Shown here: in pieces, positions 59,218 to 64,000 of the stretch
Layout: each line of letters begins with the position of its first letter
Position numbering within the stretch: the stretch's first letter is position 1
Source: Alphaproteobacteria bacterium
GTDB taxonomy: Bacteria; Pseudomonadota; Alphaproteobacteria; DSM-16000; Inquilinaceae
Assembly: GCA_028281925.1 (NCBI GenBank)
Contig: JANQIX010000082.1
Location: forward strand, 62,001 to 126,000
DNA length: 64,000 bases
Direction of reading: 5' to 3'
Program-made: the position numbers and the translations under genes
The notes under the pieces: model-generated
Database searches by the model: none
The model's input: the letters and a program-made list of their open reading frames with translations, nothing else
Told to the model about the DNA's origin: nothing

Positions 59218-62010
59218 TCAGCTGCGCTCCACCAAATCCATCAAGAGGTCGATCGTGACCTGGCCGTCGGCCGGCGTGAGGCCGACATCGCTCTGGTAGG
59301 CGCGGATGGCGCTGCGCGTCACCTCGCCGATCATGCCGTCGACTTCGCCGGGGTCGTACCCCTGCTCCACCAACAGCTGCTGTGCCAGCGTGATCAGGGC
59401 GGCGTTCGGCAGGGTGGCCAGGTTCTCCGCCGCCGCGCGGCTGGCGTCGCGGTTGCGGTGGACCATCGCACGGACATACCAGCGCGCGGCCCGCGCGAAG
59501 TCGCGCGGCACGCCCTGGCCGGTGTGGTAAAGCCAGCCCAGATTGTTCTGGGCCCAGGCATGCCCTTGCAAGGCGGCCGCTTCATACCAGCGCGCGGACT
59601 CCGCAAAGTCCTGATCCACGCCTTGGCCGTTCTGGTACAGGAGGCCCAGATTGTTCTGCGCCAGGCTCTGACCCTCTTCCGCCGCCATGAGGTACCAGCG
59701 GGCGGCCTCGGCATAGTCCTGTTCCACCCCCAGCCCGTTGGCATACATCACGCCTACATTGTTGTAGCCAAAGATGTCGCCCGCGTCGGCGGCCTGTCGG
59801 TACTGGCGCAGGGCTTCCTCATAGTCGCGCGGCACGCCATAGCCGTTCTGGTACATCCAGCCGAGATTGTTGAATCCGAAGGTGTGCCCGGCTGCCGCGG
59901 CACGGCGGAACCATGTCACGGCCTCGCTGTAGTTGCGCGGCACGCCCTGGCCCTGCTGATAGAGCTTGCCGAGATTGTTGAAGGCGTATGCGTCGCCGCC
60001 GTCCGCGGCCTGCTGGAACAGGCGGAACGCTTCGTCATGGTCCACCGGCACGCCGCGGCCATACTGATAGAGATAGCCCAGATTGTTGATGGCCAAGAGA
60101 TAGCCGTCCTCGGCCGCCTGCCGATACCATCCGGCCGCTTCGGCGAACTCTCCGCCGGCGTCCAGGGCGCGGCCGAGCTGATAGACGAAGCGCGGCACAT
60201 CGGGATAGACATTCACGGCGGACTGGCAGGCATCTACCGCCTGGGCCACCCGGATCTCATTGACGATGTTGCCGGGCACAACGCCTTGTGTGTCCAGCCG
60301 CGTACCCGCCAGCCGGTCGCATTCGTGCACGCCCACGGTCAGCGTCAGGCTCACGGCATCGATCTCAGGCCGGTCGGCGAGGCGGTAGACCAGTGCACTT
60401 TCGCTTTCCATGGCGCCTTCACCGGGCTCGAAGGTCAAGGCCGCGGCCTGCGCCGGCAACAGCGTATCGCCTGCGGCGACCGGGCTGCCGTCTGCGGCCA
60501 CGACTCCGTTGTCCGGCAGGGAGTCAACGCGGATCGGACCCGGCATGGCCCCCAGATCGATCGGCACCGGTCCCACGCCGATCACCGAGTGCAGGGGAAA
60601 GGGCTGGATCAGCGCCGGTGCGTCCGGCGGCGTGACTACGGCAACTTCGATCTCGGTGTCGCCGCCACGCTCCGTCGGCGCAGCGGCAACCTGGACTTCC
60701 AGCTCGGCCAGTGCGTTTTCCGCCAGCACGGCGAAGGCGCCGTCAGGGAACCGCTCCAGATAGGCCAGGAACTCCGACGGGTCGTCGCTGTCTGCAATGG
60801 CGTTCCAGAAGGCAACTTCGATGGCGCTCGCCTGATCCTGCGGATCCGCCGGCTCGGCCTCTGCCGCTTCCCGCGCCAGACGGGCCTCGAGCCCCGAGAT
60901 CTGCAGCTCAGCCAGGGCCACATAGGCGCCGTCGGGATAGGTCGTCAGATAGTATTGCAGGGCCGCGATCGCCTGTTCCGGCATCTCGATTCGCTGGGTC
61001 GACTGCCACACGACAGTTTCCTGCTCCGCCTGGTCGACTTCGGATGGTCCGGCGGCGGTCATCGACTGCAGGCGCCGCTCGGCCACGGCTGCCAGGCGGT
61101 GGTCAGGATGGTCGGCGATGAAGGCGGTCAGTGCCGCCGCCTGCTCTTCCGGCGCCGGCAGCGCCATGGCCGCATCGAACTGGGCCAGGATTTCCTGATC
61201 GGGGTTCGCCACGGCCTCCGGCGGGGTCAGGTAGAGCTCGCCGATCAGCGCCTCTTCCACCCAGGGGACCTGCTGGCCGCGGGTGGCCGCGATCACGCTC
61301 TCGCGCACGCGGCGGAACAGCAGGCCGACCTCCAACCCCGGCTCGGTTATGTGCTGCAGCAGCGCCGTGGTGAACGGGCTGTTGTCGCCCTCGCCGTCCA
61401 GCGCCACATCGCCGGGCGCGGTGGCATAGGCGATCAGCATACCCGAGGTGCCGCGGGTGGGCGCCAGCCCGCGCCCGACGGCAGCCGAACGGCCCAGCTG
61501 CTCGGCCCGACGCGTGAGCGTGCGGGTGATCGGATTGTCGCGGCAGGCATCCAGGATGATCAGGCTGGTGCGTGGCTGGCCCAGCTCGATCTCCGTCGTC
61601 ACCATCGAGAGCGGAAAGGCTTCGTAGCGCAGGTCTCGTTCCTGCTGCACCTCGGCTGAGGTCGGCAGCAGATAGTTCTCGCCGGCTACCTGCAGGCCAT
61701 GGCCGGCGAAGAAGACCAGCGCGATTTCCGTGCCCTCGATCTCGGCGCCGAACCGGCGGAAGGCATCCTGCATGCCGAGATAGTCGGCGTCGATCGCCTC
61801 GACCACCTCGAAGCCGATTTCGCGCAGGGCCTGGCCCATGTCCCGGGCATCGGCCGGTGGGTTCGGCAGTTCGGTGATGTGTTCGTACTGGCCGTTGCCG
61901 ATGACCAGGGCGACCCGACGCCCGTCATCTGCGCCGGCCGGCGCGGGCCGCCAGACTGCGGCCGCGACGACCAGCGCAAGCATCAGTGCCCCGACACGTC
62001 TGCCTATCAT
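59218..62010 (-). CDS. Secreted caspase-like (C14) protein with Sel1 repeats and peptidoglycan-binding domain
   Basis: A 930-aa multidomain exported protein. A signal peptide (about 1-27) precedes a caspase-fold domain (about 30-275). The dyad looks intact: His104 in FFAGHGLQ and Cys156 in ILDACRDNP. Next come a helical linker region (about 280-450) and a beta-rich Ig/cadherin-like segment (about 460-560). Six Sel1 repeats follow at exact 36-residue spacing (NNLGYLYQ, NNLGKLYQ, NNLGWMYQ, NNVGVMYA, NNLGLLYQ, NNLGWLYH). A C-terminal peptidoglycan-binding-1-like domain has QGYDPGEVDGMIGEVTRSAI. It is last in a three-gene unit. Bacterial orthocaspases usually cut after Arg/Lys; acting in the periplasm is inferred from the signal peptide. 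Confidence 0.9.
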   Translation of the reverse strand: MIGRRVGALMLALVVAAAVWRPAPAGADDGRRVALVIGNGQYEHITELPNPPADARDMGQALREIGFEVVEAIDADYLGMQDAFRRFGAEIEGTEIALVFFAGHGLQVAGENYLLPTSAEVQQERDLRYEAFPLSMVTTEIELGQPRTSLIILDACRDNPITRTLTRRAEQLGRSAAVGRGLAPTRGTSGMLIAYATAPGDVALDGEGDNSPFTTALLQHITEPGLEVGLLFRRVRESVIAATRGQQVPWVEEALIGELYLTPPEAVANPDQEILAQFDAAMALPAPEEQAAALTAFIADHPDHRLAAVAERRLQSMTAAGPSEVDQAEQETVVWQSTQRIEMPEQAIAALQYYLTTYPDGAYVALAELQISGLEARLAREAAEAEPADPQDQASAIEVAFWNAIADSDDPSEFLAYLERFPDGAFAVLAENALAELEVQVAAAPTERGGDTEIEVAVVTPPDAPALIQPFPLHSVIGVGPVPIDLGAMPGPIRVDSLPDNGVVAADGSPVAAGDTLLPAQAAALTFEPGEGAMESESALVYRLADRPEIDAVSLTLTVGVHECDRLAGTRLDTQGVVPGNIVNEIRVAQAVDACQSAVNVYPDVPRFVYQLGRALDAGGEFAEAAGWYRQAAEDGYLLAINNLGYLYQYGRGVPVDHDEAFRLFQQAADGGDAYAFNNLGKLYQQGQGVPRNYSEAVTWFRRAAAAGHTFGFNNLGWMYQNGYGVPRDYEEALRQYRQAADAGDIFGYNNVGVMYANGLGVEQDYAEAARWYLMAAEEGQSLAQNNLGLLYQNGQGVDQDFAESARWYEAAALQGHAWAQNNLGWLYHTGQGVPRDFARAARWYVRAMVHRNRDASRAAAENLATLPNAALITLAQQLLVEQGYDPGEVDGMIGEVTRSAIRAYQSDVGLTPADGQVTIDLLMDLVERS

Positions 62011-62073
62011 ACGACGATCCGATCAGCGGTGAGACCGCATAGCCACGGTGACGATGCAGCCGAAGCGGCCCGG

Positions 62074-62631
62074 CTACCAGCCGCCGCCTCCACCACCGCC
62101 GCCGCCGCCCCCGCCACCTCCGCCACCACTTCCGTCGGCGGATGGTGTGCCCAGCCAGTCGAAATCGCCGCCGCTGCTGCCGGGTGGCGTGCTGACGGCG
62201 GCGCGGGTGGTCTCTTCTGCTGGCACTGCCTGTACCGGTGCTTCAGCCTCGGTCGTCACCGGCGTTTCTGTCTCGGTTGTCGGGACAGGGGTCACAGCAG
62301 GTGCGACCCTGGCCGCCGGCGCCACTGTGGGCGCCTGTATGCGCGCCTCAACGCCTGTGGTGCTGAGAAACGCCGCCAAGTCGTCCGGCCCGAAGACCCG
62401 TCCGCCGGCCGCCGACCGCTGCTGAGCCAGAGCCTGCAATTGCGGATCGCCGTTCTGGGAGAGGATCGAGGCGACGATGGACTCCCGGATCGCGGCGGAC
62501 GCCGCCGGGGAATAAGGTTGGTGCGCGATAATCTGCGCCAGATCCTGGCCTGACGACTGGGCCGCTGCATTCGTCGTCACGGCGCAGAGGGCAACCGCTG
62601 CGGCGCCCAGCGCCTGCTTCATGAAGGTCAT
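62074..62631 (-). CDS. Secreted protein with polyglycine C-terminus
   Basis: A 185-aa exported protein: signal peptide (about 1-25, ending NAAAQ), a helical mature domain (about 28-95), an Ala/Pro/Thr/Glu-rich linker and a C-terminal run of about 16 glycines closed by a single Trp. AGGAG lies 9 nt before the ATG at 62631; the longer frame overlaps the upstream lipoprotein in another frame. It is the middle gene of the caspase operon (gaps of 37 and 63 bases). No family recognised. The Gly run is simple-sequence DNA and its length may vary between strains. Confidence 0.75.
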   Translation of the reverse strand: MTFMKQALGAAAVALCAVTTNAAAQSSGQDLAQIIAHQPYSPAASAAIRESIVASILSQNGDPQLQALAQQRSAAGGRVFGPDDLAAFLSTTGVEARIQAPTVAPAARVAPAVTPVPTTETETPVTTEAEAPVQAVPAEETTRAAVSTPPGSSGGDFDWLGTPSADGSGGGGGGGGGGGGGGGGW

Positions 62632-62668
62632 GTCTTGCCTCTCCTGTCTTTTCGGTTTGCCCTTGTCC

Positions 62669-63130
62669 TCAACGTGGTCCGGCGCCGACGCAAGGCGACA
62701 GGGCCTGCTCCACATAGGCTTCGAACTGCGGCACCTGGCTCTCTGGGATCTGACAGGTCTCCACCGCATAGAGTTGTTCGATCGCGGCGCTGTCGAACGC
62801 CATCGCCACTTCACTCCGCTCTGCCGTCGATAGCGCACCGCCGCCAAGCGTCTGCAGCGCCTGGGTGCGCAGCATGGAGAACTCGCGGTCGTCCTGGATG
62901 AAATTGCAGCGGGCCGCCGTGCCGAGCGCGGCGCCGCAGCTGCGTGCCTCCGCCAGCGTGTCAACCAGCGGGGCACTTGCCACCTGCGTCTGCGCGCCCT
63001 GCGGCGGCGCCGTGGTAGCCGGCGCAGCACTCTCAGTCTGGCAAGCGGCCAGCAGCAGCATCAGGCTGCCCGCCGCCAAGCCGGCGATCGCTCTGGGTCG
63101 GCTTCGCCATGCCGTCTTTGCCGTTGCCAT
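62669..63130 (-). CDS. Lipoprotein, first gene of the caspase operon
   Basis: A 153-aa lipoprotein with twin-basic start and lipobox LAAC (lipidated Cys30). After an Ala/Pro/Thr linker the mature domain (about 60-150) is helical with four cysteines, in RSCGAALG, ARCNFIQ, ETCQIPE and SPCVGAG, probably two disulfides. AAGGAG stands 5 nt before the ATG. The small Cys-rich domain is not recognised. Sharing a transcript with an exported caspase suggests a periplasmic partner. Confidence 0.75.
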   Translation of the reverse strand: MATAKTAWRSRPRAIAGLAAGSLMLLLAACQTESAAPATTAPPQGAQTQVASAPLVDTLAEARSCGAALGTAARCNFIQDDREFSMLRTQALQTLGGGALSTAERSEVAMAFDSAAIEQLYAVETCQIPESQVPQFEAYVEQALSPCVGAGPR

Positions 63131-63443
63131 GCCGTCTCCTTAAGCTCGACTCGCATCCGTAGGGATCACGAAAATTTGGTGACAATTTGGTTGCCCTTGG
63201 GCGCAAGATAACGTCGCTGCGATCGAGGATAGCATCTCCGGCGACTTTTGCATCGCTCCGGCGCTATCGGGCCGCGATCAGGCAGATCGGAGGATGGCGC
63301 GAGACCGTCAAACTGGCGATTGTATCGATTTCTAACTAACTATCGTCAATGGTGTCGAAAGGTTAGACCGATACCGTACATACCAGCGTAACCTCAAAGG
63401 GTGCGGGGGCCGGACCATCGGGCGACCCGCCAACGGGGCTCCC
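63131..63443. other. Divergent intergenic region between caspase operon and globin sensor
   Basis: A 313-base control region. Apart from the AATTTGGT pair described separately, an AT-richer stretch around 63,315-63,360 (CTAACTAACTATC) could carry the promoter of the globin gene. No RNA gene or small ORF is supported. Confidence 0.4.
63173..63191. promoter_or_regulatory. Candidate response-regulator site: 11-bp direct repeat AATTTGGT
   Basis: AATTTGGT at 63173-63180 and again at 63184-63191 are spaced 11 bp start to start (one helical turn), 43 bases upstream of the lipoprotein start. OmpR-class regulators bind such head-to-tail repeats near -35. Only one pair is present, so this is tentative. 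Confidence 0.3.
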
Positions 63444-64000
63444 GATGCCGTCTCTGACCGATCAGATGCTGATGGAACAGATGTGCATGACGGAGCGCGA
63501 GATCGAGCGCCGCAAGGCCCTGATCGGGCTGACCGGCGACGATGCACTGTTGTTGAGCGCGCTGATGCCCCTGATGAAGGCCCGTGTCGACGACATCGTG
63601 GCCGATTTCTATGCCGCGCAGGTCAAGCAGCCGGAGGTGGCGCGTATCATCGGCGACGCGGAGGGGCTGAAGCGTCTGCACGGCACCATGCGCGTCTATG
63701 TGATGGACCTGTTCTCCGGCGACTATGGTGCCGATTACGCCAATTCCCGGCTGCGCATCGGCCTGATCCATCAGCGGATCGGAGTGACACCGCAGCTTTA
63801 TCTAGCGGCAGTGAACCTGCTTCAAGGCCTACTGGTCCGTACCATCGACGCAGACCGCGCAATTGTCGGCGACGAAATCTGTGCACGCCGGAAAGAGGCA
63901 TTGCGTAAACTTCTGATGTTCGACATGGCGCTTGTGTTCGACACCTATATCCACACGCTGGTCGGGCAGGTGGATCACGCCCGGCAAGAGGTCGAACGCT
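63444..64000 (+). CDS. Globin-coupled sensor (protoglobin domain), N-terminal part
   Basis: The frame opens at 63444 and is still open at the window end (185 codons). The sequence matches a sensor-globin (protoglobin) domain: helices with LMPLMKARVDDIVADFYA and RLHGTMRVYVMDLFSG, then the haem-proximal histidine expected in RIGLIHQRIGVTPQLYL, and a closing helix FDTYIHTLVGQ. Such domains bind haem and sense oxygen or other gases. The output part (diguanylate cyclase, chemoreceptor or kinase) lies beyond the window; the charged heptad at the end (VDHARQEVER) looks like a linker coiled coil. Confidence 0.88.

Follow-up and report, generated by a model that had tools for sequence, protein, structure and literature searches.

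A predicted lipoprotein gene and a glycine-tail protein gene accompany a gene for a caspase with an export signal in two orders of Alphaproteobacteria

Analysis of a 64,000-nucleotide stretch of alphaproteobacterial DNA (hereafter the window) revealed two small genes, one for a predicted lipoprotein (gene A) and one for a secreted protein with a glycine tail (gene B), beside a gene (gene C) whose product carries an export signal and is a bacterial caspase, related to the animal protease of cell death. The presence of the small genes beside a caspase gene in two orders, together with a retained catalytic dyad, gives good support to a predicted exported protease module with two partners. The three genes very probably form a real functional trio. 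The reading that we prefer, with a probability of roughly 0.4, is that of a conserved cell-envelope module built around an exported caspase, with the gene B protein as substrate and the gene A protein as anchor or regulator. The features are:

62669..63130, minus strand: gene A, predicted lipoprotein of 153 amino acids (open reading frame, lipobox, Shine-Dalgarno sequence)
62074..62631, minus strand: gene B, secreted glycine-tail protein of 185 amino acids (open reading frame, signal peptide by sequence)
59218..62010, minus strand: gene C, exported caspase/Sel1/peptidoglycan-binding protein of 930 amino acids (open reading frame, Pfam domains)
63131..63444, no strand: intergenic region between gene A and a divergent protoglobin-GGDEF gene, presumed promoter site

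A sequence-only reading of this DNA had described a three-gene set on the minus strand, and all three open reading frames are indeed intact and placed as listed. Genes A and B are separated by 37 bp and genes B and C by 63 bp. The good Shine-Dalgarno sequences claimed for the set were found for genes A and B (AAGGAGAC and ACAGGAGAG), and not for the caspase start codon, the ATG at 62010 (CTGATCGGATCGTCGT). Tight spacing and conservation suggest that genes A, B and C are a single operon, with its promoter presumably within 63131-63444; searches for a sigma-70-like promoter, including in this upstream region, and for a minus-strand terminator found none. The divergent gene adjoining the cassette (window 63445-64000, continuing in L058 8446-9639) encodes a probable oxygen-sensing cyclase of protoglobin-GGDEF type and is kept beside the cassette in the window's genus only. 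As regards export, a basic n-region followed by a hydrophobic stretch was found in all three proteins, with a lipobox in addition in gene A, and the N-terminus of each is more hydrophobic than any other part of the same protein; the earlier claim of three export signals thus stands as judged from sequence features and hydrophobicity.

Analysis of gene C revealed a C14 caspase domain, a linker region, Sel1 repeats at about residues 640-850 and a peptidoglycan-binding domain at 873-921. Pfam matches comprise Peptidase_C14 (E 1e-37), six Sel1 repeats and PG_binding_1 (9e-11), and the protein scores 130.4 bits against the curated Peptidase_C14 cut-off of 21.4. The fusion of a caspase with an intact dyad to Sel1 and peptidoglycan-binding domains, as first read, is borne out by H104 (in FFAGHG), C156 (in LDACRDN) and these Pfam domains; both dyad residues are invariant among the aligned cassette caspases. 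The nearest named relatives of the caspase are mostly from Alphaproteobacteria. Among solved structures the caspase-domain profile matched the MALT1 paracaspase best (E 1.7e-21, whole domain); the caspase domains are alike, whereas MALT1 is a eukaryotic cytosolic immune signalling protein with other accessory domains. Likeness to caspases of conflict systems is weak and confined to the caspase domain: gene C scored 59.3 bits for the EACC1-associated caspase model NF047832, under its cut-off of 140, and 30 bits for the PADLOC defence caspase PDLC02987. These conflict systems are cytoplasmic, whereas gene C carries an export signal. The window's genome holds two more exported-looking caspases in tandem (L059 5504-9670) and three further C14 genes elsewhere. 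In another genome (G008), one cluster (L063 318-4150) joins an exported caspase to a Ser/Thr kinase with DUF4384 and to a small secreted protein, possibly as another envelope caspase system.

Gene C by itself resembles what is known of prokaryotic caspase homologues (orthocaspases or bacterial metacaspases, PF00656, MEROPS C14), which have the C14 His/Cys dyad and fusions to Sel1, FGE-sulfatase and peptidoglycan-binding domains as in the cassette caspases. In the 2012 survey (PMC3501461), N-terminal helices of bacterial caspases are taken as probable signal peptides; of 671 proteins, 40 have Sel1 and 11 have peptidoglycan-binding domains, and fusions of FGE-sulfatase with the caspase domain are also listed. 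Hence the remark that bacterial caspase domains have mostly been studied in the cytoplasm was only partly fair, and, as the survey also covers caspase operons, gene C taken singly is nothing out of the ordinary for its kind. According to the same survey, 70 of 217 caspase operons gave no functional hint. Two conserved exported partner genes are undescribed in the parts of it consulted and in the other literature found. What is new is the conserved partner pair, undescribed as far as our searches reach. For the families of genes A and B, scans of Pfam, NCBIfam, PHROGs and PADLOC gave nothing above chance, and a search of solved structures by sequence gave none, with two designed proteins at E 0.1-1 as the only matches.

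Comparison within the genus revealed the three genes in the window's order in a sister species (G009), with a caspase 96% identical; dN/dS between the two is 0.26 for gene A, 0.09 for gene B and 0.06 for gene C, values that, along with conservation of the trio across orders, speak for something beyond chance. The contig concerned (JANQQD010000093.1, L041) is labelled Anaerolineae, and whole-genome comparison places G009 in the window's genus, so the label or the binning looks wrong. In the window's family, relatives of gene C (caspase or Sel1) are present in 14 of the 15 other genomes and genes A and B in none of them at E 0.001, the order of the trio being confined to one genus.

Class-wide searches, which were samples with at most ten candidates scored per genome, revealed a single strong homologue of gene A (34% identity, E 9.5e-17), in genome G146 of a separate order. 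Here gene A is followed by a gene B with glycine tail and final tryptophan and by a caspase/Sel1/peptidoglycan-binding gene; no other C14 gene was found in G146. The window and G146 caspases share 38% identity along their length. A three-row profile then added five genomes of the order of G146 to those with gene A. A separate profile search for gene B picked out these six genomes of 31 and no others. Gene A is followed directly by gene B in all six. The caspase follows the pair in G146, G416, G423 and G424 and precedes gene A in G408, and in G422 the contig stops inside gene B; counting the window and the sister species, the caspase is adjacent at seven of eight loci, or at seven of the seven where adjacency could be tested. 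Two copies of gene B are present in each of G423 and G424. The G416 caspase gene (L104 3-1018) is split over two frames, by a frameshift or an assembly error. With an eight-row profile, again with at most ten candidates scored per genome, the trio proved rare, with at least two of 385 genomes of the class; weak class matches besides G146 at E 0.001-0.01 were unsupported by this profile. Conservation of the small genes beside the caspase, fixed beforehand as the test on which the sequence-only reading would stand or fall, was thus observed in two orders, and the dyad was likewise retained.

The flanks of these loci are unlike. The window has protoglobin-GGDEF, G146 a type VI cluster, G424 AzlC/D-like genes and G408 ABC-transporter genes; G146 and G416, which belong to one genus, have a common upstream flank. 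In two genomes an extra secreted-looking gene lies upstream of gene A (L105 8689-9198 and L106 1166-1321), and its product ends in the common motif NIAIG/NVAIG..AC.E.GT. At Rhodobacterales and other caspase loci (L042-L056) neither the gene A nor the gene B family was found alongside, and no homologue of gene A was found in plasmid records or viral contigs.

Analysis of the caspases accompanied by the pair revealed Sel1 and peptidoglycan-binding domains in five of the six that were aligned. The G408 caspase has an FGE-sulfatase domain in place of Sel1 and no peptidoglycan-binding domain. In the caspase-domain tree the cassette caspases do not form one group, as the G408 enzyme branches with one from a different lineage (96/94); the well-supported branches require at least two changes, and many other forks are open. 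This domain swap and the tree together make the caspase domain the constant partner of the pair. No other feature of gene C is constant, which argues that the pair may serve the protease itself.

Gene A has the signal peptide and cysteine-ending lipobox (LAAC, lipid-bearing Cys30) of a bacterial lipoprotein, and its product presumably sits in the outer membrane. Cys30 is aligned in eight of eight homologues, the lipobox of G146 being weaker (SASC). The C-terminal domain of about 90 amino acids contains four invariant cysteines (65, 75, 126 and 147), and the alignment of homologues gave the conserved core RRCG..AARCN...DDRDF..LR. The structure models of the gene A and gene B proteins are built on two sequences each. 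The AlphaFold model of gene A is a four-helix bundle (pLDDT about 77-93 over residues 51-149), and a fold search with it matched generic helical bundles alone. Like the gene A protein as modelled, the pilotin GspS (3sol), an outer-membrane lipoprotein, is a small lipid-anchored bundle of helices; the two match with Z 4.9 over 89 residues. This Z is far under the level of kinship for helical bundles, which match widely, there is no sequence match, and no secretin genes were seen beside the trio.

The gene B protein consists of a signal peptide, an N-terminal domain of about 65 amino acids (residues 28-93), a linker rich in proline, alanine and threonine, an aromatic motif and the tail, which in the window has 16 glycines and a terminal tryptophan. 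The glycine codons are mixed, so a simple triplet expansion does not account for the tail. The longest glycine run is 16 in the window and 10 in the sister species. Overall the maximum ranges from 10 to 18, and a final W or WN is present in all eight complete copies; the G408 tail is rich in Asp, Ser and Gly and is interrupted by the contig end. Arginine directly precedes the aromatic motif in seven of the eight copies of the other order, in the forms KR-YFG (G146), RR-YLG, DR-NWG, GR-NWG, RR-NWG (twice) and VR-EIFLG. In the window and the sister species the motif is FDWLG (in GGDFDWLG), with the arginine replaced; the nearest arginine, R143, is 16 residues upstream of W159. The model of gene B is of low confidence (pLDDT 47), too uncertain for a fold search.

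According to the reading that we prefer, the caspase would act in the periplasm, where its C-terminal peptidoglycan-binding domain would hold the Sel1-type enzyme on the cell wall. The gene B protein would be its cognate substrate, cut after a basic residue in a disordered linker, and the cut would free the glycine-rich, tryptophan-ended tail from the N-terminal domain. At the membrane, the cysteine-rich four-helix lipoprotein would anchor or control either the protease or the glycine-tail protein. Export signals, adjacency and the conserved dyad agree with the periplasmic proteolytic module proposed earlier, the periplasmic seat itself being predicted. The roles of gene B as cognate substrate and gene A as binder or regulator are tentative. 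The build of gene B, a folded domain followed by a low-complexity linker and a tail, with arginine before the motif (7/8, other order), fits a substrate. Orthocaspases cut after Arg/Lys (PMC6426788), and the orthocaspase MaOC1 of Microcystis cleaves a protein encoded by a neighbouring gene at basic stretches (PMC7935541), a precedent for a neighbour-encoded substrate and for cleavage at basic residues. However, the neighbours of MaOC1 are a cytoplasmic toxin-antitoxin pair, whereas the cassette partners are an exported lipoprotein and a glycine-tail protein, with no known sequence relation. The main weakness of the substrate view is that the best candidate cleavage arginine is absent from the window's own gene B. 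The rarity of the trio and the two-sequence basis of the structure models also count against the preferred reading. It is doubtful, if conceivable, that the system serves periplasmic caspase signalling or self-destruction, with an outer-membrane lipoprotein that would sense or hold the glycine-tailed substrate for a wall-bound caspase.

A role as inhibitor for the gene A or gene B protein fits nearly as well as that of substrate: the lipoprotein or the N-terminal domain of gene B would be a dedicated inhibitor of the caspase, released by envelope damage to give a stress-triggered or lytic response. A small cysteine-stabilised helical protein always beside its protease is a common inhibitor layout, the charged RDDRDF stretch of gene A is conserved, and a conserved Rhizobium caspase operon with protease-inhibitor activities is noted in the survey (PMC3501461). 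Sequence and fold nevertheless gave no recognisable inhibitor family, and a glycine tail kept with its terminal tryptophan would be left unexplained; overall we consider the full scenario rather unlikely. Less probable again is an envelope scaffold or quality-control complex organised by the Sel1 and peptidoglycan-binding domains, which are binding modules, with gene B as a structural glycine-rich surface protein and proteolysis for maturation or turnover. A tail that varies in length (10 to 18) yet keeps its final W/WN would suit it; the pair in G408, however, accompanies a caspase without these domains, so the scaffold part is dispensable and the intact-dyad caspase domain is not.

The G146 trio (L103, C1:323000-342900) is followed directly by VgrG and then by TssM, TssK, TssJ and TssL, which would suit a type VI interbacterial weapon with the caspase as effector and the lipoprotein as immunity protein. 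Linkage to VgrG, Hcp or PAAR across the homologues was found in G146 only and not around the trio of G408, G423 and G424, where transport or metabolic genes flank it, and no type VI genes stand out in the window when read by eye. The caspase has a Sec-type signal of its own, whereas ordinary type VI effectors have none. With the link limited to one locus, a weapon of this kind is very improbable. Chance neighbourhood without a functional link is hardly credible: caspase genes are common in the class and the order occurs in one genus only of the window's family, but genes A and B occur in the same six of 31 genomes, with the caspase adjacent at all seven testable loci in unlike flanks, and their co-occurrence to a large extent refutes it.

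If the preferred reading is true, a caspase would be at work outside the cytoplasm with a dedicated substrate and regulator of its own. Hardly any natural substrates are known for the caspase homologues of bacteria. Partners that recur over a large evolutionary distance narrow the candidate substrates and regulators to a few that are open to assay with purified proteins, and these would act outside the cytoplasm, where there has been little search so far.
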